Source: a virus. From it: a DNA stretch of 34,979 bases. Below the pieces are notes generated by a model. That model made no database searches. It was not told the DNA's origin and was given only the letters and a program-made list of their open reading frames with translations. Position numbers and translations under genes: made by a program. Shown one piece after another: positions 19,014 to 33,664 of the stretch. Within the stretch, counting starts at the first letter, position 1, and each line of letters starts with the position of its first letter. Location: the IMG/VR virus record IMGVR_UViG_3300030044_000053, positions 1 to 34,979 of that record; one strand, 5' to 3'.

Positions 19014-19360
19014 AGCTCAACCTCATGGCAAAGACGCCAGAAATAAATACGTCCGCCGCGATTGTCTCTATTCGCCTGACCGCACCGCTCGACGACACCC
19101 TGTTTCACCATCTGACACAATAGCGTTGACACAACTCTCATTTTTATGCCCGTGATGCTAACTATTTCCGCAGTTGTGAGTGGTCCATTTGTGAGCGCGG
19201 TCAAGATCGGACCTCGACGATGACGCCTGACAGATACGCCAAGCCTTTTGGCGTGCCTGGAAACTGTAGATTGATCTACGTTTAGATCACTCGCAATTTG
19301 TTTTCCTAGCATCCCTGCGGACAGCATTTTAGGAATATCATCGTAATTCGGATTCATCAT
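19010..19360 (-). CDS. Tandem HTH/winged-helix DNA-binding protein
   Basis: A 116-aa protein with two DNA-binding units: a resolvase-like HTH at about 15-42 (LGKQIASDLNVDQSTVSRHA) and a winged helix at about 50-95 (LTTAEIVSITGIKMRVVSTL, then VKQGVVERC). The start overlaps the upstream nuclease stop as ATGATG. It is followed by the GcrA-like gene with a 4-bp overlap, giving two consecutive regulators in the replication operon. It has a winged-helix layout similar to the 7054-7569 protein. Target unknown. Confidence 0.75.
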   Translation of the reverse strand: MMNPNYDDIPKMLSAGMLGKQIASDLNVDQSTVSRHAKRLGVSVRRHRRGPILTALTNGPLTTAEIVSITGIKMRVVSTLLCQMVKQGVVERCGQANRDNRGGRIYFWRLCHEVEL

Positions 19361-20277
19361 TTGTCTCCGTCAATCCATTCGTTACCGTATGACATTTTGT
19401 AAACAATCTTTTCGCCAGCGCGAACGTCAATTTGTTCGCCTGGAACCAAAGCAGGAATGAACCTATGTTCCTCGCATCCTGTTTGCTGAGCCTTGTAATC
19501 GCGTTGCGTCTTGTTTTTCTCGCACGTCAAGCTTTCGGGATTGACCGTACCATATATACACGTCCGACAATTGACACGCGGAAAAGCGCCTTCGTGGCAG
19601 ATCGAAAGCGACGGGCAGTACAGGCACGCAAAAGCCGCCTTGGCGTTCGGATCATCATGCAAACGTGCGGGAGGTTCCGCCAGATTGGCGATGCGCTCAA
19701 TCCTAGCCTCTGTCTGCATACAGAAAACAGGATCGTAATGCACCCGCTCAAGGTGGCGTTCGTCGGTGTCTTTGTTGACGCACCAATACGCTCCGCGTGT
19801 CAGGCTGAGCGCGTGCATGTAAAGTTGCAACTGCGCGTGATGCTCCGGTATAGCCTTGGCGACGCCGTGTTTGACGACCGCGCGGAATTTTTCGGCTTTC
19901 AGGCTTTTGCATTCGACAACATGCTCTGTTTTTGGAGCTTCAACTAAGCCCGTCGCGGTCGCATCGGTACGACCTCGCAGAAATCCTCCCGCCAACGTGA
20001 CCTTTTTCTGATAATGTCCGAACGTCACGCCGATGTTGGCGAGATCGTCAAGCAACCGATCTTCCCATTTCAGGCCAGTTGTCAATCGAGACGCACCGGC
20101 TCCGTCAAAAGGATTTGATGGAGCGGCCCAATGAAGTTTGTACCAGATGGCGCGGTCGCATGGGTTTATGGCGTCCGACATGGACACGCCCGCGCTATCT
20201 CCCAAACTAGCGCCGCGAGCTAAGAATGCGTAGACGGCTTCTACCGTGTGCGGAAATGGCGGCGGGATTTCAGCCAT
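19357..20277 (-). CDS. PD-(D/E)XK exonuclease, Cas4/RecB-like, with Cys clusters
   Basis: A 306-aa phage nuclease. Core motifs are GRTDA (about 102-106), VVECKSLK (about 119-126, the ExK element) and QLQLYMHAL (motif IV region). A Cys at 40 (NPCDRAIWY) plus a later CLYCPSLSIC cluster match the iron-sulfur arrangement of Cas4/AddB-like nucleases. A second Cys set (CRTC and downstream Cys) follows near the C-terminus and may bind zinc. It would resect DNA ends for the recombination system next door. Its ATG lies inside the last codons of RNase H. Confidence 0.85.
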   Translation of the reverse strand: MAEIPPPFPHTVEAVYAFLARGASLGDSAGVSMSDAINPCDRAIWYKLHWAAPSNPFDGAGASRLTTGLKWEDRLLDDLANIGVTFGHYQKKVTLAGGFLRGRTDATATGLVEAPKTEHVVECKSLKAEKFRAVVKHGVAKAIPEHHAQLQLYMHALSLTRGAYWCVNKDTDERHLERVHYDPVFCMQTEARIERIANLAEPPARLHDDPNAKAAFACLYCPSLSICHEGAFPRVNCRTCIYGTVNPESLTCEKNKTQRDYKAQQTGCEEHRFIPALVPGEQIDVRAGEKIVYKMSYGNEWIDGDK

Positions 20278-21953: not shown

Positions 21954-22763
21954 TTAATCCTTAGAGTTGGGAACAACGATAGCAGGCAGATAAGGCGCGA
22001 GCGCCGCATAGCCCTCACCACGCTTGAACATGATTTTCTCAGGCATGTTGTATCGATTTTTCGCCACGAAGCTTGGGCGCTGTTCGGTATAAATCCACCG
22101 CGTACCGCCGCCGACGCCCTTAGTTTCTTTCTTAATGTATGTTGTTCCTTGAAGCTTCACCGCCTTAGCATCTTCAACCTTAATGCTGGCCTCTTGATTG
22201 ACAAAGAAGATAGCATCCATTTCATCTTGAAACAAGCCGAGTGCTCTCTTGTGCAATCGAATATCGTAACGACTATACGATGATGTCTGCGGATCGTCGA
22301 AGCGTTCAATCGTCGAATGGGCTATATGGATAGTTGTCATGCCGCGTTCGTGTCGAAGTTTGGCGCATGTCGATAGATAATCCATCCATAGGCTATCTGC
22401 CGCGACATAGCTTTTCCCAAAACCGGGAGTTTCCATATTCTCCCATTTGTTTTCTTCGCATGTATATCGCCAGACGAGCTTTTCCATCTTGTCGATACTA
22501 TCAATCACAACCGTCTTGAAATCGTGCGGCTCGTAAAGAAGCGCGTCAAGCGCCTGCATCACTTCGACAAAAGACGTAATTGGCTCATCGCCAAAGCTGG
22601 TCAACTCAAGATCGCCTGACGTTCCGTCTTCCGTCTGAATGAACACCGTATCCGGAAACTCGGCTCCTAAAGTTGTTTTGCCAAGCCCAGGAGGGCCGTA
22701 GATTAGGACGCGCGCGGGCTTGTTCGCCGTGACGCGCCGCAAGGTTGATAGACTGACAGCCAT
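21954..22763 (-). CDS. Sak4-like RecA-type ATPase (AAA_24), annealing recombinase
   Basis: A 269-aa protein with Walker A at 23-31 (GPPGLGKTT) and Walker B near 84-92 (TVVIDSIDK), followed by HIAHSTIERF and an arginine-finger-like region. This is the P-loop phage family often called Sak4 or AAA_24, which acts with an SSB-like partner in single-strand annealing recombination. AGAGG lies 8 bp before ATG 22763. The adjacent DUF669 protein supports the pairing. RecA-like strand exchange is possible but less likely at this size. Confidence 0.83.
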   Translation of the reverse strand: MAVSLSTLRRVTANKPARVLIYGPPGLGKTTLGAEFPDTVFIQTEDGTSGDLELTSFGDEPITSFVEVMQALDALLYEPHDFKTVVIDSIDKMEKLVWRYTCEENKWENMETPGFGKSYVAADSLWMDYLSTCAKLRHERGMTTIHIAHSTIERFDDPQTSSYSRYDIRLHKRALGLFQDEMDAIFFVNQEASIKVEDAKAVKLQGTTYIKKETKGVGGGTRWIYTEQRPSFVAKNRYNMPEKIMFKRGEGYAALAPYLPAIVVPNSKD

Positions 22764-24494: not shown

Positions 24495-24731
24495 ATGCCA
24501 ATGAGCGCCCCCACATTCTGCCAGACGTGCGGCGCGCGGGATGACGCGACAGAGCGCGGGCTTTCATATGACCACATAGCGGTCATGAACGCCCTAGAAA
24601 TGTTCGTTACTCAGTGGAACGCATTCGGGCCAAATTCTGAGGCAGGCGACGCTTTCAAGAAAGTTAGAGCCGCCGCCGTGAAAGCTCTTGGAACAGACGC
24701 CCCGAAATACAGGGCCGATCTTTTCAAATGA
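24495..24731 (+). CDS. Zinc-motif small protein with CxxCGARDDATERGL start (copy A)
   Basis: A 78-aa protein. An N-terminal CQTCGARDDATERGL module is shared with the gene at 25200, including 23 identical bases; the remainder is helical and unrelated to the partner. The Cys pair could bind zinc together with another chain. GGAGGTGATC precedes ATG 24495, and ATG 24501 is a possible alternative. Function unknown. Confidence 0.7.
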   Translation: MPMSAPTFCQTCGARDDATERGLSYDHIAVMNALEMFVTQWNAFGPNSEAGDAFKKVRAAAVKALGTDAPKYRADLFK

Positions 24732-25199: not shown

Positions 25200-25469
25200 A
25201 TGAGCGAGCAATACACCTACTGCCCGACATGCGGAGCGCGTGATGACGCGACAGAGCGCGGGCTGGCGTTTGATGTTGTTGCTTTGCAGGAACGCGAACT
25301 GCGGTATTTCCGCGCTCTCACTGAGATCACCGCGTTTGCTCCACTAACCAAGCCGGAAGATTTCGGGAACACCGGCAACTGCGACGACGCTGCCTACTAC
25401 GCCAGATACAGCGCCTATTACCACTGCGGACAGGTTGCGAAGATTGCGCTTACGGGAGAACAGACATGA
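25200..25469 (+). CDS. Zinc-motif small protein with CxxCGARDDATERGL start (copy B)
   Basis: An 89-aa protein: YCPTCGARDDATERGLAFD, then a longer helical part with Tyr-rich DAAYYARYSAYYHCGQ. It shares its first ~25 residues with the gene at 24495 and diverges after. Its stop overlaps the next ATG (ATGA). The Cys/His content suggests metal binding. Function unknown. Confidence 0.7.
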   Translation: MSEQYTYCPTCGARDDATERGLAFDVVALQERELRYFRALTEITAFAPLTKPEDFGNTGNCDDAAYYARYSAYYHCGQVAKIALTGEQT

Positions 25470-26045: not shown

Positions 26046-26061
26046 GGAGTAACTCAGATGG
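26046..26061 (+). repeat. 16-bp start-site repeat, copy 1 (before DUF7666-like gene)
   Basis: GGAGTAACTCAGATGG, including ribosome-binding site and ATG; identical to 26759-26774. Confidence 0.88.
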
Positions 26062-26765
26062 AAAAAACAATCAAATCAATCAAAGGGTTTGATAAAAACT
26101 TGTCATGCCGTGGTTTCAAATTCGAGGCTGGCAAGTCATACGAAGTCACTGGCGACATAAAAGCGTGTCAAAATGGCTTCCACGCATGCCCAACTGACGA
26201 ACACCCACTTTCGGCGTTTGAATATTATTCGCCGGCAACATCGGTATTTCATGACGTCGATCAGTCAGGGAAAACCGACAAAGACGGCAACAAAATCGCA
26301 TCCGCCAAGATCACAATCAACGCGGAAATCTCACTCGGCGACTTGACAAAACGCGCGGTTGAATGGGTTTTTAAGCGAGCGAAGTGGTCGGAAGGCCCGG
26401 TCGCAACTGGCCATAATGAAGGAGCTACGGCAAGCGGCGATCATGGCGCGGCCACGGCAAGCGGCGATCATGGCACGGCTACGGCAAGCGGCTATCAGGG
26501 CGCGGCCACGGCAAGCGGCGATCAGGGCGCGGCCACGGCAAGCGGCTATCAGGGCGCGGCTACGGCAAGCGGCAATCAGGGCACGGCTACGGCAAGCGGC
26601 CTGGGCGGGAAGGTCAAGGGCACCGCCGGCAACGCGATGTTCGCCGTCGAGCGAGACGATAATTTCAACATCGTCAGCGTCGCGTGCGGGATAGCCGGTA
26701 AAGACGGCGTGCCGGCTGATGCGTGGCTCGTCTGCAAAGACGGAAAACTAACTATTTCGGAGTAA
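26058..26765 (+). CDS. DUF7666-like protein with 9-residue ATASG repeats
   Basis: A 235-aa protein. Residues 1-115 carry a GFDKNLSCRGFKFEAGKSYE start and an ACQNGFHAC motif typical of the DUF7666-like domain found in phages and mobile elements. Residues about 118-180 are seven 9-residue units of the type G[D/Y/N][H/Q]G[A/T]ATAS (27-bp period). A distinct C-terminal cap follows (GNAMFAVERDDNFNIVSVAC). The repeats probably form a beta-solenoid-like stack. An identical 16-bp start-site sequence lies before this gene and before the next one. Function unknown. Confidence 0.8.
   Translation: MEKTIKSIKGFDKNLSCRGFKFEAGKSYEVTGDIKACQNGFHACPTDEHPLSAFEYYSPATSVFHDVDQSGKTDKDGNKIASAKITINAEISLGDLTKRAVEWVFKRAKWSEGPVATGHNEGATASGDHGAATASGDHGTATASGYQGAATASGDQGAATASGYQGAATASGNQGTATASGLGGKVKGTAGNAMFAVERDDNFNIVSVACGIAGKDGVPADAWLVCKDGKLTISE
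26409..26597 (+). repeat. 27-bp coding tandem repeat, seven units
   Basis: Seven in-frame 27-mers starting GGC and ending GGCAAGC. The first unit is degenerate; the rest differ at a few positions (GAT/TAT/AAT, CAT/CAG, GCG/ACG). The close similarity of units suggests recent expansion or gene conversion. Confidence 0.92.
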
Positions 26766-26774
26766 CTCAGATGG
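26759..26774 (+). repeat. 16-bp start-site repeat, copy 2 (before ParB-like gene)
   Basis: The identical 16 bp at the next gene start. The repeat also contains the stop codon of the DUF7666-like gene. Confidence 0.88.
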
Positions 26775-27792: not shown

Positions 27793-28085
27793 TGACCGAC
27801 TATCTGATCGAAGCCTACAACACCGAAATGTCCGAGATACAAAATCGCGAAATTCAGGCATTGTTTGAAGCGCTGGAACTTTATGTTTCTGCGCAGACAT
27901 ATGCCACGCATCAAGCCGTGCGCGAGCGTTTCAACGCAGGCGTAAGGCTGGCGGCAGCGATGTCGCAACGCGACCATGAGTACCACAATGGGCGCACTCC
28001 CGCACCAGAGGATCAGAAACCTGAGCCCGATACCGTTCTTACGTTTCCGTCTATCGTGACGCGCCAGCGTAGCGAAGTGATGTAA
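27792..28085 (+). CDS. 97-aa helical small phage protein
   Basis: MTDYLIEAYNTEMSEIQNRE and the following ~60 residues are strongly helical, followed by a Pro-rich tail. The ATG overlaps the previous stop (TGATG), so it is probably translated by re-initiation. No family recognised. Confidence 0.65.
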   Translation: MTDYLIEAYNTEMSEIQNREIQALFEALELYVSAQTYATHQAVRERFNAGVRLAAAMSQRDHEYHNGRTPAPEDQKPEPDTVLTFPSIVTRQRSEVM

Positions 28086-28111
28086 TCAACATATCAGTTA
28101 GGATATCTATC

Positions 28112-28276
28112 ATGTTCACATACGGCAAATTCACCGTGTCGATGATTTCCGCCGAGCAGGTAGTCCGCCGCGTTCTACTCGAAGCAAAGCGCACAGGCGA
28201 CGATACATTCGCCGCGCAGTTATTGCCAGAAATGCTCAGCGCCGCACAGGACGTTCAGGGGAGGCGGCTGCGATGA
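28112..28276 (+). CDS. 54-aa small phage protein
   Basis: MFTYGKFTVSMISAEQVVRR is followed by LLEAKRTGDDTFAAQLLPEM, mainly helical. The ATG at 28112 follows GGATATCTATC, a weak site. Its stop overlaps the MazG-like gene as ATGA, supporting its reality. Function unknown. Confidence 0.55.
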   Translation: MFTYGKFTVSMISAEQVVRRVLLEAKRTGDDTFAAQLLPEMLSAAQDVQGRRLR

Positions 28277-28542
28277 GCTACCCCGTGGTATTGAACGCTA
28301 CAGAAGCAAGGGCCATTGAGTTTGCCAATGAACTTGAACGCGCCCGGATAAAGTTTGCCAAGATGGCATCCGCCCACGAAGGCTACGCCATCATCGCAGA
28401 GGAATTTGACGAACTTTGGGATATCGTCAAACAGAAACAAACGCAGCGTGATTATGCGGCGTTGCGCAAGGAGACGGTCCAACTCGGCGCAATGGTCCTC
28501 GCGTTTCTAGTGGAAATCGTTGACGAGGGGAACCGACGATGA
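28273..28542 (+). CDS. MazG-like all-alpha protein
   Basis: An 89-aa protein. EGYAIIAEEFDELWDIVKQK and a later RKETVQLGAMVLAFLVEIV are typical of small phage proteins related to MazG-type nucleotide pyrophosphohydrolases, in which the EE-x-x-[E/D] helix binds Mg2+. The motif here (AEEFDEL) keeps three acidic positions. Possible roles are dNTP pool sanitation or (p)ppGpp hydrolysis; the similarity is from pattern only. Overlaps both neighbours. Confidence 0.6.
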   Translation: MSYPVVLNATEARAIEFANELERARIKFAKMASAHEGYAIIAEEFDELWDIVKQKQTQRDYAALRKETVQLGAMVLAFLVEIVDEGNRR

Positions 28543-28748
28543 CCACCTACGAACGCGGCGAGCGCGTGAAGCCGATCTCCCCGAACCGCAGCGACGCCCC
28601 GGACCCTTCGATACGCATTGGCCGCGACCGATGGCCGCCGTCGCGGGACGGCGCAGCCCTGGCGACGGAACTGGCGCTGCTGCCGCTGGCGTTGGCGCTC
28701 AACGCGGCGGGCGTGTTCGTGGAGCTTTGGTTCAGGAGGCGACCGTGA
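28539..28748 (+). CDS. 69-aa small membrane protein
   Basis: MTTYERGERVKPISPNRSDA is hydrophilic, then a hydrophobic helix (ATELALLPLALALNAAGVFV) leads to a basic RRRP end. It starts at an ATGA overlap and its stop overlaps the next GTG. GC content here is visibly higher than in the middle of the window. Function unknown. Confidence 0.6.
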   Translation: MTTYERGERVKPISPNRSDAPDPSIRIGRDRWPPSRDGAALATELALLPLALALNAAGVFVELWFRRRP

Positions 28749-28924
28749 CCCCAACCGCCGCTGACAATCTACTCCTACTCGCCGGAGCGCTCGCGGGCGG
28801 CGGCATGGTTGCGCTGGTCTGGATTTGGTCAACCGATCCGGTGAACCGCGACGGGCGCTACGCCACGGCGCTCTTGGTCGTCATCGTCATTATCATCGCT
28901 TACTTCGTGAGGTTCCTGCCATGA
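28745..28924 (+). CDS. 59-aa two-helix membrane protein
   Basis: Starts at GTG 28745 inside a GTGA overlap. VTPTAADNLLLLAGALAGGG continues through two hydrophobic helices separated by a polar loop (STDPVNRDGRYA). The long upstream frame has no plausible start. The two consecutive tiny membrane proteins (28539 and 28745) may work together. Its stop overlaps the 11-codon remnant at 28921. Confidence 0.6.
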   Translation: MTPTAADNLLLLAGALAGGGMVALVWIWSTDPVNRDGRYATALLVVIVIIIAYFVRFLP

Positions 28925-28940
28925 CCCACCCCACCGATCC
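28920..28940 (+). repeat. 21-bp gene-start repeat, copy 1 (before tad2)
   Basis: Matches 29210-29230 at 20 of 21 positions. It starts CATGACCCACCCC and ends CGATCC. Confidence 0.88.
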
Positions 28941-28956
28941 TATCAAAGGAGTGTAA
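28921..28956 (+). pseudogene. 11-codon orphan start of the gene at 29211
   Basis: ATG-ACC-CAC-CCC-ACC-GAT-CC (MTHPTDP) copies the start of the gene at 29211 (MTHPADP) and then diverges to a stop at 28956. It looks like the stranded 5' end left when tad2 entered between the membrane-protein gene and the 29211 gene. An alternative is a short leader peptide coupling translation into tad2. Confidence 0.5.
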
Positions 28957-28959
28957 ATC

Positions 28960-29214
28960 ATGAATATCGGAGAAGCAGTGGCGGCAATGAAGCAGAACTA
29001 CCGCGTTCGTCGCGCCGGTTGGAACGGCAAAGGGATGCACATTTACCTGGAGGACGATTTAGAAAGCACAATCGAGGGGCGCAATCCGCGCCTTCGTGAC
29101 GGGCGCATGTATCATTCGTACATCGTGCTTCTGACAGCGGGAGGGACGTTCCAGCCCGGCTGGAACGCATCGACGCCGGACCTGTTGGCGGATGATTGGG
29201 AGATAGTAACATGA
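28960..29214 (+). CDS. tad2: DUF2829 / Tad2-type Thoeris anti-defence protein
   Basis: An 84-aa protein matching the DUF2829 family: MNIGEAVAAMKQNYRVRRAG, WNGKGMHIYLE, then YIVLLTAGGTFQPGWNAS and LLADDWEIV. Characterised members (Tad2) sequester the cyclic ADP-ribose-type signal made by ThsB and so block Thoeris abortive infection. Length and all conserved blocks fit. It has its own AAAGGAG 8 bp before ATG 28960, and a near-identical 21-bp gene-boundary sequence brackets it. Binding specificity for a given signal isomer cannot be told from sequence. Confidence 0.85.
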   Translation: MNIGEAVAAMKQNYRVRRAGWNGKGMHIYLEDDLESTIEGRNPRLRDGRMYHSYIVLLTAGGTFQPGWNASTPDLLADDWEIVT

Positions 29215-29230
29215 CCCACCCCGCCGATCC
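29210..29230 (+). repeat. 21-bp gene-start repeat, copy 2 (after tad2)
   Basis: The second copy, forming the functional start of the gene at 29211. Confidence 0.88.
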
Positions 29231-29576
29231 CGTTGCCGCCATGCGAGAGGCGGGCTGGTCAGTTGCAGTTCATAATGACTACCGGCTCAACGGCGAGCGG
29301 ATGACGTTCTGGTTGTGGACGCATCCAAGCGGACAGTGGGTCAAAGGGGAAGGCGAGACAGACGAGGTTGCGCTTGGAGAGTGCTTACGCGCCATCCCCA
29401 TCCCCGCCGCCCAGCCAGACCCCCGCGACGAGGCGCTGCGGCTCGCGCGGGAGGCGTTGGAAATAATCGCGGGTCGCCGCCAATGTATCGACAACCTTAT
29501 GGGAAATACTGACGTAGCACTAGCCGCCCTCGCCGCCATCGACGCGCTGAGGCGCGAAGCGCCGTTGAAGGAGTGA
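29211..29576 (+). CDS. 121-aa phage protein downstream of tad2
   Basis: MTHPADPVAAMREAGWSVAV, then a Trp-rich middle (MTFWLWTHPSGQWVKGEGET) and a helical C-terminus (DEALRLAREALEIIAGRRQC). ATG 29211 overlaps the tad2 stop (ATGA). The C-terminal helix pattern is common in small phage proteins. Function unknown. Confidence 0.65.
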   Translation: MTHPADPVAAMREAGWSVAVHNDYRLNGERMTFWLWTHPSGQWVKGEGETDEVALGECLRAIPIPAAQPDPRDEALRLAREALEIIAGRRQCIDNLMGNTDVALAALAAIDALRREAPLKE

Positions 29577-29581
29577 TGGGG

Positions 29582-29983
29582 ATGAGCGAGCTAGAAATTC
29601 ACGCGGTTCCGAAGAACCTATACTACCACGAAGTCGCTTACGTGCGTGGCCTTAAAGCTCGCGCCGAGAAGGCGGAACGCGAACGGGATGAGGTAATAAC
29701 CGCCGCGAATGCTCGCATTGCGGAGTTGGAGAAGGACGCCGCGCGTTGGCGCGCGCTGGTCACAACGTTCGGCCCAGAAATGGACGTCTCCACTCCGCAC
29801 CGTCCGCACACCATGCTGATCGCCATCGACACAGAGGGGTGCGAGGTCCGTGAGGATGGGAATCTTGATTTCAAAGAAACGCTTGAGCGCGCGTTGGACG
29901 ACGAAATTAAGAGACAATCCGCCGCCGCCGCCGCCGCCGCCGCCTCCGCCGCAGACCTCCGCAAGGCGGGAGATGGGATATGA
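29582..29983 (+). CDS. Coiled-coil phage protein with poly-Ala run
   Basis: A 133-aa protein. A coiled coil (about 22-60: RAEKAERERDEVITAANARI) is followed by a folded part and a C-terminal SAAAAAAAASAAD stretch encoded by (GCC)8. AAGGAG lies 8 bp before ATG 29582; ATG 29576 is an alternative. Its C-terminal DLRKAGDGI region shares 14 bp (CCTCCGCAAGGCGG) with the end of the gene at 30441. Function unknown. Confidence 0.65.
   Translation: MSELEIHAVPKNLYYHEVAYVRGLKARAEKAERERDEVITAANARIAELEKDAARWRALVTTFGPEMDVSTPHRPHTMLIAIDTEGCEVREDGNLDFKETLERALDDEIKRQSAAAAAAAASAADLRKAGDGI
29921..29944 (+). repeat. (GCC)8 trinucleotide repeat
   Basis: Eight perfect GCC codons encoding poly-Ala inside the coiled-coil gene. 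This tract is prone to slippage. It also creates a long open Pro- or Gly-rich frame in other frames, which is not a gene. Confidence 0.9.
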
Positions 29984-30042
29984 CAGGCATTCCCCACGGA
30001 CCCATCCCCATGACAGCGCCAGCCACAAGGACGATAGACTGA
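29980..30042 (+). CDS. Possible 20-aa linker peptide ORF
   Basis: ATG 29980 overlaps the preceding stop (ATGA), and its TGA overlaps the next ATG (TGATG). MTGIPHGPIPMTAPATRTID has no recognisable feature. It may simply keep ribosomes moving from the coiled-coil gene to the gene at 30042. Confidence 0.35.
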   Translation: MTGIPHGPIPMTAPATRTID

Positions 30043-30302
30043 TGAGCGAACAATCATACGAACTCGGCGAACTGCTTTACAGACATCTCGCGACTGAGAT
30101 TGATGAAGCGGAACTCGCGATCAGAATCATGGAGCGCGCTCTGATGATGAAGCGGAGCGACGGCAAGATTTCGCGCGACCTATTGGCAGAGTCGCGAGCG
30201 CTTATCGTTGCGAGCGGAGACGATTTCCCGTTTGACGACATGGCGCGCATCGCAATCGAGTATTTCCGCGAGTGCATCGAGAAGGGACATCGGCCCGCAT
30301 GA
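30042..30302 (+). CDS. 86-aa helical small phage protein
   Basis: MSEQSYELGELLYRHLATEI is followed by DEAELAIRIMERALMMKRSD, an all-helical acidic protein. The start overlaps the 20-codon frame and the stop overlaps the decayed HTH gene (ATGA). Function unknown. Confidence 0.6.
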   Translation: MSEQSYELGELLYRHLATEIDEAELAIRIMERALMMKRSDGKISRDLLAESRALIVASGDDFPFDDMARIAIEYFRECIEKGHRPA

Positions 30303-30469
30303 CCCCGCCAGCCTATTCGCCCCGCGATCTGGCGGAACACTGGCAATGCTCGGAGCGCCATGTGCGCAACCTTAATACGAAAAGGACTTAGCCGAGTGGG
30401 AACGGAAAGCCCCTCATCATTTGCAGCAAGGATGCGCCCCATGACAGACACACCCACACCCGGATTTGA
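30299..30469 (+). pseudogene. Decayed helix-turn-helix (AlpA/excisionase-like) gene
   Basis: The first 30 codons (MTPPAYSPRDLAEHWQCSER, then HVRN) match the start of AlpA/excisionase-type HTH proteins and then hit TAG at 30391. In the +1 frame the expected continuation LIRKG appears, as if one T was inserted near 30372. Back in the first frame after the stop, SGNGKPLIICSKDAP looks like the family's C-terminal strand. Two compensating indels plus a stop indicate a dead gene. A 30-residue functional peptide cannot be excluded. Confidence 0.6.
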
Positions 30470-30938
30470 TTTGGAGAGGATGCGAGACGCGGCGAAGAGG
30501 GCGACGCCGGGGCCTTGGACGCGCGAGAAACCGCCTGTAGGCGATGGGGGATTTCGCGAGGGATGCGCTGTCGCCGCGACCTATGGCCGGCAGACAATCT
30601 ACGCCAACCCGCCGGGAGGGTCATTCCCGAGTTTCGATGCTGACCATATCGCCGCGTCCAACCCCGCCTCCGTCCTCGCGCTGATCGCCGCCTATGAGGC
30701 AGAGAAGGAACGGGCGGATGAGAATTTCAAAGATGCAAAAGCCTATTCTGATGCGGCTAAGATGTGGCGTGATGAATGTGAGCTTGAGCGTGGGCATGTT
30801 TCCCATTTACGCGCCCAACTTGGCGCGATCACCGACCAGCATGCCGCGCACGGATGGCGGACGGCAGATGACGCGGCAATGCGCGTTGAGCGCGACGCCC
30901 TCGCCGAAAACCTCCGCAAGGCGGTCACTAAGGCTTAG
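30441..30938 (+). CDS. Ea22-like phage protein with ATPGPW motif
   Basis: 165 aa from ATG 30441 (AAGGA 8 bp upstream). RATPGPWTREKPP is followed by DADHIAASNPASVLALIAAY and a coiled-coil end, the usual layout of Ea22-like early phage proteins of unknown role. It shares the x-TPGPW theme with the gene at 10466. It is the last gene of the rightward operon and its 3' end overlaps the converging gene by 11 bp. Confidence 0.75.
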   Translation: MTDTPTPGFDLERMRDAAKRATPGPWTREKPPVGDGGFREGCAVAATYGRQTIYANPPGGSFPSFDADHIAASNPASVLALIAAYEAEKERADENFKDAKAYSDAAKMWRDECELERGHVSHLRAQLGAITDQHAAHGWRTADDAAMRVERDALAENLRKAVTKA

Positions 30939-32438: not shown

Positions 32439-32903
32439 TCATCCTTGGGTTGCTAACCAAACCTCGATCTGCCCCGCTATGGAGACGCGGCGATCGACCG
32501 CCCCGCCGGCCGATGCGCGCTCAAACCCTCCGGCCCACGCCCGCGTCGCGTCCGCGCCATTCGTGGCGATGTTCAGCGCGTTCAACGTCACGGCATTGGC
32601 CGGCATGGCGAGCGCGAACAGTACCGCATCGACATGCCGGGCGAGATCGGGCTCTGTGCGAATGTCGATCCCGAGAGCGCCCGCAATCGGCTCGCCGTAG
32701 AACTGCCATTTGAGCTGCCACGGACCAAAGCTCTGCCCGTGATCTCCGACGATGACGGGCTTCCAAGCCGATTCCGCGTAGCCGTTGGCGAGCGCCGCCA
32801 CGATGAACGGATTGGCCTTCTCATGCGCTCGGAAGGCGTCAACGATGGTCCGTGCGCGGCTCCATGACGAATCGGTCGGATGCGGGAGGATGATCGGGGT
32901 CAT
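32439..32903 (-). CDS. Lysozyme-like muramidase (phage tail lysozyme / lytic transglycosylase fold)
   Basis: 154 aa from ATG 32903, which overlaps the amidase stop. The lysozyme-like centre has NGYAESAW with candidate catalytic E44 and GDHGQSFGPWQ at 53-63, the pattern of tail-lysozyme and transglycosylase folds. There is no signal peptide or SAR segment, so release depends on a holin. With the neighbouring amidase it gives two peptidoglycan-cleaving activities. Confidence 0.75.
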   Translation of the reverse strand: MTPIILPHPTDSSWSRARTIVDAFRAHEKANPFIVAALANGYAESAWKPVIVGDHGQSFGPWQLKWQFYGEPIAGALGIDIRTEPDLARHVDAVLFALAMPANAVTLNALNIATNGADATRAWAGGFERASAGGAVDRRVSIAGQIEVWLATQG

Positions 32904-33664
32904 GCGTGTTTGCTCAGGTAGTCCGCGATGGCGGCAATGCTCGCCGCTCCGATCTGTCCATCCACAAACAGATGCGCCCCGCGTGCATTCAGGAAAGACT
33001 GCACCCACGACGCCCGCTCTGTCGGGTCGGCTGGCGGTGCCGCCGGCAGTGGATCAACCCGAGACGCGCCGCCGTGCGAAGGCTCAAGCGGGACGTTCAT
33101 CGCAGGCGCTACCGCGCTTGGCCTAGGAGCCCCGTGGAGCGCCCATTCTGGCAAAGGAGAGGGGAGCGCCTTGTACGCCGCCACTACCGTGTCCATGAAC
33201 CCCCGCCATTCGGGGCTATTGACGCCGAAGCAATCCACATGGCCGCCGCCCGATGCGCCGAGGTCGTGATGCTGGCAAACCCCGCGCCCCTGTCCGCCCT
33301 GAGCCCATAGCGGCGGAATCGAATAGGCCGCGCAAAGCCACGCCACGATCTGCGCCGCCGCCTGCACGGTCTGCGGAGCCATTCCCTGCGCCGACACGCC
33401 CTCGATTTCCAAGCTCACGCCTGCCGAGTTGAACGCGCATTGCGCCCATGCTTTCTGCCCGAGCGGCACGAGTTGCGAAACTTCCGAGCCGTCCGCCTTC
33501 ATGACCAAATGCGCCGATGCATTCGCTTGAGGAGAGCATAGCCACGCGACCGATCCCGCATAGCTGCCCTCAGTCCGATGAACAATTACGAGGTCATGCC
33601 GGATCGGCGTCGCGGAGAAGTTGGGCGATGGTCTCTGTTTTACGGGCGGAAGGATCATTGTCAT
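32900..33664 (-). CDS. N-acetylmuramoyl-L-alanine amidase with peptidoglycan-binding end
   Basis: 254 aa from ATG 33664 (GAGG 9 bp upstream). The amidase_2 fold spans about 20-150, with zinc-ligand candidates H29 (VIVHRTEG), H132/H133 (CQHHDLG) and the HVDCFG segment (142-147). After a Pro/Ala linker, a C-terminal peptidoglycan-binding-like domain follows (VQSFLNARGAHLFVDGQIGA). It hydrolyses the bond between MurNAc and the stem peptide at host lysis. It is 25 bp downstream of the tail-spike-like gene. Confidence 0.85.
   Translation of the reverse strand: MTMILPPVKQRPSPNFSATPIRHDLVIVHRTEGSYAGSVAWLCSPQANASAHLVMKADGSEVSQLVPLGQKAWAQCAFNSAGVSLEIEGVSAQGMAPQTVQAAAQIVAWLCAAYSIPPLWAQGGQGRGVCQHHDLGASGGGHVDCFGVNSPEWRGFMDTVVAAYKALPSPLPEWALHGAPRPSAVAPAMNVPLEPSHGGASRVDPLPAAPPADPTERASWVQSFLNARGAHLFVDGQIGAASIAAIADYLSKHA

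Follow-up and report, generated by a model that had tools for sequence, protein, structure and literature searches.

An orphan gene start in front of a Tad2-like gene of a tailed phage, a probable scar of single-gene exchange

Why should a frame of only 11 codons stand directly in front of a tad2 gene and begin almost exactly as the gene behind tad2 begins? The locus belongs to a 34,979-base virus record of an uncultured tailed phage (the window, by which we mean the whole stretch of DNA analyzed) that encodes a portal, terminase, primase, helicases, a Cas4-like exonuclease, and a Sak4-like annealing protein. Small genes, many of them chained via ATGA overlaps, lie on the + strand between 24.3 and 31 kb. 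An initial annotation had proposed that tad2 was inserted into this chain as a single gene; here we ask which parts of that proposal hold and which other histories could have left the same arrangement.

A repeated gene start on both sides of tad2

The sequence CATGACCCACCCC[A/G]CCGATCC occurs in two direct copies that flank tad2, identical at 20 of 21 positions and spaced 290 bases apart (Table 1). Copy 1 opens the orphan frame (ATG ACC CAC CCC ACC GAT CCT ATC AAA GGA GTG TAA) and copy 2 opens the 29211 gene; as first described, each ATGA holds the stop of a preceding gene, that of the 28745 gene at the first copy and that of tad2 at the second. The two regions are alike only within the repeat, with similarity stopping at both of its ends. 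Allowing up to three mismatches, these are the only two sites in the window, where the next-best 20-mer matches the repeat at 14 of 20 positions, and none of 100 dinucleotide shuffles of the window gave any such pair. When the 23 + strand gene starts of the region were compared, anchored at the start codon, the score of this pair (18) was reached in 0.05% of column-preserving permutations. The duplicated start is therefore real, far above both shuffles and permutations. The ribosome-binding site of tad2 lies six bases past the repeat.

Table 1. Coordinates of features at the tad2 locus and at a second flanked gene
Feature	Position	Strand	Description	Basis
Gene-boundary repeat, copy 1	26046..26061	+	GGAGTAACTCAGATGG, at start of 26058 gene	Permutation
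Gene-boundary repeat, copy 2	26759..26774	+	GGAGTAACTCAGATGG, at start of ParB-like gene (26771)	Permutation
Upstream gene	28745..28924	+	59 aa, two hydrophobic stretches; TGA inside ATGA of orphan start	
GAGG	28909..28912	+	Shine-Dalgarno-like, 8 nt before orphan ATG	Sequence
Start repeat, copy 1	28920..28940	+	21 bp, CATGACCCACCCCACCGATCC	Repeat scan, shuffles, permutation
Orphan mini-ORF	28921..28956	+	MTHPTDPIKGV, 11 codons + TAA	Sequence
AAGGAG	28946..28951	+	Shine-Dalgarno of tad2	Six bases past repeat copy 1
tad2	28960..29214	+	84 aa, Tad2-like family PF11195	Pfam, solved chains, dN/dS
Start repeat, copy 2	29210..29230	+	21 bp, CATGACCCACCCCGCCGATCC	Repeat scan, shuffles, permutation
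Downstream gene	29211..29576	+	MTHPADPVAAMREAGWSVAVHNDYR..., 121 aa, chimeric small phage protein	Start and linker common to L003 gene
Coiled-coil gene	29573..29983	+	Patches in common with next gene of L003	DNA comparison

The tad2 product matches PF11195 over the entire profile (1-73 of 73; 80.6 bits against a cut-off of 25; E = 1.2e-22) and seven distinct solved Tad2/AcrIIA7 chain sequences with phmmer E values of 1e-11 to 4e-9. The likeness to known Tad2 proteins (PDB: 8sme, 8wjd, 8v3e) is full length and includes the GWNGKGM and C-terminal DW motifs. Judged by its sequence, the protein is certainly Tad2-like, and the anti-defense identity given to it in the initial annotation stands as a prediction from Pfam and the solved chains. 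Tad2 (PF11195) is a sponge for signaling nucleotides of Thoeris and CBASS (PMC12043709), presumptively its function here too, and nothing in the present findings changes what is known of Tad2 itself. Unlike the known cases, this phage also adds a second, diverged Tad2-like gene, located about 1.3 kb to the left of window base 1 in a sibling contig, G003 (L066:16807-17049, - strand; 35% identity; PF11195 E = 8e-24); genes like it lie near the terminase in relatives farther removed, L014 and L077 among them. The GC content of tad2 (0.565) is below that of its direct neighbors but differs little from the window mean (0.544), and so does not prove a foreign origin. The upstream gene has no Pfam match above cut-off and no IMG/VR relative.

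Removing one 290-bp unit in silico restores a perfect ATGA overlap through which the 28745 gene runs into the 29211 gene, as expected for an insertion, although not proof of one. Direct repeats of 21 bp around about 270 bp could also suggest target-site duplication by a transposon-like element carrying tad2. We rejected this reading as very improbable: the unit ends lack inverted repeats, tad2 is the sole gene inside with no transposase beside it, and a random target would not be expected to begin, as the repeat does, with a start codon.

The tad2 locus had also been called the clearest one-gene insertion footprint in the window. It is unusually clear, but another single gene (26058-26765) is flanked in the same way by GGAGTAACTCAGATGG, which occurs exactly twice, with 16 of 16 positions identical (permutation P = 0.003). 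The geometry is that seen at tad2, a single gene between two copies of the next gene's start region. Hence the tad2 case is not isolated, which favors recombination over a special leader. Elsewhere in the region, two genes have N-terminal DNA in common (24512-24571 and 25214-25273; TCGARDDATERGL, 83% over 60 bases) and differ in their bodies. A likeness of 30006-30027 to the start at 30441 fell within short-repeat noise and was discarded.

Mobility of tad2 and the frame in front of it

The nearest tad2 relative in IMG/VR lies on the contig of a different phage, L053, with 92% protein and 79% DNA identity. A dN of 0.081 against a dS of 1.68 indicates that Tad2 has been kept by purifying selection and that the two genes separated long ago. 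The DNA match is confined to 28960-29220, beginning with the tad2 start codon and reaching six bases beyond the stop, and the flanking genes are unrelated between the two phages. Homology limited to tad2 between unrelated flanks shows that the gene moves as a single, exact coding sequence. A lysozyme-like gene (32439-33008, - strand; 71% identity) is the only other clearly common gene of the two phages. In both, the last codons of tad2, TGG GAG, which encode part of the conserved DWE motif, supply the next gene with a GGAG Shine-Dalgarno, and the tad2 stop overlaps the next ATG. With these built-in elements, tad2 could easily be placed before any gene starting with ATG. If the exchange reading set out below is right, tad2 is one more counter-defense gene that passes between unrelated phages as an exact coding sequence.

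Had the orphan frame been a conserved leader of tad2, the insertion reading would have lost its ground, as the initial annotation itself noted. The frame is absent before 11 more distant tad2 genes (L054-L064), and in L053 its place is taken by a different, 16-codon mini-ORF that also overlaps as ATGA, MTHAMMFLRMIWGMQI. That mini-ORF begins with ATGACCCAC, as do the two window copies; among 267 ORF ends with ATGA in nine phage contigs, only these three continue as ATGACCCAC, a coincidence of about 1 in 265. The window and L053 leaders have nine bases in common, beyond which they are hardly more alike than unrelated leaders. The common ATGACCCAC hints that tad2 could have brought a short start with it; as a weak hint, and not as conservation, this speaks against the direction of events first proposed.

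A mini-ORF that precisely bridges the gap between the upstream stop and tad2 could instead have been kept as a functional coupler, whatever its origin: ribosomes would restart at its ATG after the upstream stop, read 11 codons, and terminate 3 bases short of the tad2 ATG, thereby coupling tad2 to the operon. The GAGG ahead of its ATG fits such a role, as do the different mini-ORF in the same position in L053 and a further bridging mini-ORF at 29980-30042 (MTGIPHGPIPMTAPATRTID), which precisely joins the stop of one gene to the start of the following one. Against it, tad2 owns a strong AAGGAG that makes coupling unnecessary, the peptide is not conserved, and the RNA structure around the mini-ORF is nothing unusual (z = +1.0). 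We regard retention as a coupler as quite unlikely.

A duplication-type insertion, if it took place, predicts a locus in which one copy of the 20-mer runs into CGTTGCCGCC without tad2. The tad2 junction is covered by one contig. The near-identical siblings in IMG/VR, five contigs with a 100% identical terminase, all end at window position 26600 or earlier, short of the tad2 junction; the longest, G003, stops at 26600 inside fiber-like repeats. Scanning IMG/VR for the 20-mer, the terminase, and the proteins of the upstream, downstream, and ParB-like genes gave no relative covering the junction. At the DNA level, 28001-30200 had no match in the phage collection, and the 29211 protein had none among 385 genomes sampled within the class of a Sphingomonas MAG (L109). 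Arthrobacter phage matches to the downstream start were set aside, since they fall midway in an unrelated protein.

The same start on a gene with another main domain

Only one other IMG/VR contig carries the 20-mer: L003 (IMGVR_UViG_3300045771_000019), where it opens a gene, MTHPTDPASVMRDVLAERERQ..., that immediately follows a tRNA-like stretch (judged by eye). The main domain of this gene is widespread and unrelated to that of the 29211 gene; in 79 other relatives it is preceded by other N-termini, and among the relatives of this domain the MTHPTDP-type start is found in the L003 contig only. The start is therefore exchangeable and does not belong to the 29211 gene alone.

The likeness continues past the start. 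Both genes have MR after it and a linker, IPxPxAQPD, and the coiled-coil genes that follow match at 32 of 34 nucleotides (29660-29693) and at 44 of 56 at the gene end (29928-29983), so that the two phages have four short patches in common, in the same order, inside a two-gene cassette. The common start, linker, and downstream patches describe a two-gene cassette with swapped bodies and shared short joints in two differing phage genomes. A recurrent gene-end sequence (CTCCGCAAGGCGG..., LRKA) is found at the 3' ends of different genes at window 29928-29983 and 30893-30924, as well as at L003 2223-2277 and 2473-2495, where it runs into ATGA.

These patches also bear on whether MTHP[A/T]DP starts could simply arise by chance in GC-rich genomes. 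Seven such 20-mers occur in 257 billion bases of bacterial genomes, mostly in open frame and mutually unrelated; as relatives of the repeat they were rejected, being in unrelated proteins or unlikely to be starts. At that frequency, chance is far too rare to place two within 290 bases, and L003 has the following MR, the linker, and the next-gene patches in addition. Independent origin is extremely improbable.

The orphan copy matches the L003 start at 20 of 20 positions and the 29211 start at 19 of 20. Being closer to L003, it may be what is left of some other gene that was lost: an MTHPTDP-start gene that stood before a resident tad2 and lost its body by deletion, with no insertion at all. 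A probable truncated gene start (MTPPAYSPRDLAEHWQCSERHVRNL...) nearby, at 30299-30391, would be a second case of this kind. A single-base difference is thin evidence, the body of such a gene would have to be entirely gone, and the 30299 stump is weak against helix-turn-helix models (Pfam E = 0.03), so we consider loss of a neighbor unlikely. The 30299-30391 frame itself overlaps as ATGA, reads MTPPAYSPRDLAEHWQCSERHVRNLNTKRT, and resembles a truncated, frameshifted helix-turn-helix gene start.

The proposed exchange and comparison with known mosaicism

With moderate confidence, we favor the reading that, in this operon of ATGA-chained genes, a single gene was exchanged at a shared start and the orphan start is the resulting scar. 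We observe directly the repeat, the movement of tad2 with gene-exact ends, and the exchangeable start; from these we infer the event, its direction, and its enzymes. On the left, tad2 would have been joined just behind the opening 20 bases of a gene that began with ATGACCCACCCC, probably by an illegitimate joint. When a gene in such a chain is displaced, its first bases have to remain, since they contain the stop of the gene before it. The right-hand joint would have fallen at this same start, or rebuilt it, and thereby put the tad2 stop back over the next ATG; it probably formed by homology within the shared start. Plausible agents are the phage's own Sak4-like annealing recombinase (21954-22763) and exonuclease (19357-20277). 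As a by-product, the mini-ORF may now hand ribosomes from the upstream gene to tad2.

The exchange could have run in two ways: in one, the start of the 29211 gene itself was duplicated; in the other, tad2 took the place of a second gene that began in the same way. The one diagnostic base by which the orphan and L003 differ from the 29211 start firmly favors neither duplication nor loss. The one-gene insertion of tad2 as first proposed remains plausible but unproven; the clean ATGA after removal of the unit and the gene-exact homology to L053 speak for it, whereas the repeated start is found in L003 as well.

If the scar reading is right, an orphan start lying over the stop of the previous gene would be a sequence-only signature of recent single-gene gain. 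A broader and doubtful extension is that portable, ATGA-overlapping gene starts serve as docking joints for one-gene cassettes in phages of this ecological group. Counter-defense genes like tad2 would then be plugged in, each leaving an orphan start, and searching for such starts could reveal recent insertions of single genes.

Several known systems resemble the locus in part. The start-associated sequences of cluster K mycobacteriophages are 13 bp long (GGGATAGGAGCCC), sit ahead of the start codon with the Shine-Dalgarno as a part of them, and are present in many copies per genome (PMC3203893). They are likewise short repeats at the starts of non-structural genes in one orientation, but the tad2 repeat has two copies and its reading begins at the start codon: its first base lies one base before the ATG, and it contains no Shine-Dalgarno. 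In domain mosaicism of phage proteins (PMC10684548), unrelated bodies are joined to interchangeable segments, as here, whereas the segment shared here is merely about 7-12 residues. A further parallel is with the conserved boundary sequences of mosaic phages (the term appears in PMC3029335 and PMC3233612, among others): these too are short sequences at gene borders, associated with different genes, recombination joints, and single-gene exchange. The tad2 repeat differs from them in lying within the first codons and in being duplicated around one gene. Only two phages, that of the window and L003, are known to carry it, and it borders different genes in the two, with the L003 start matching at 20 of 20 positions. 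Most likely, then, the tad2 locus is an instance of known phage mosaicism, ordinary gene shuffling that left an unusually clear footprint.
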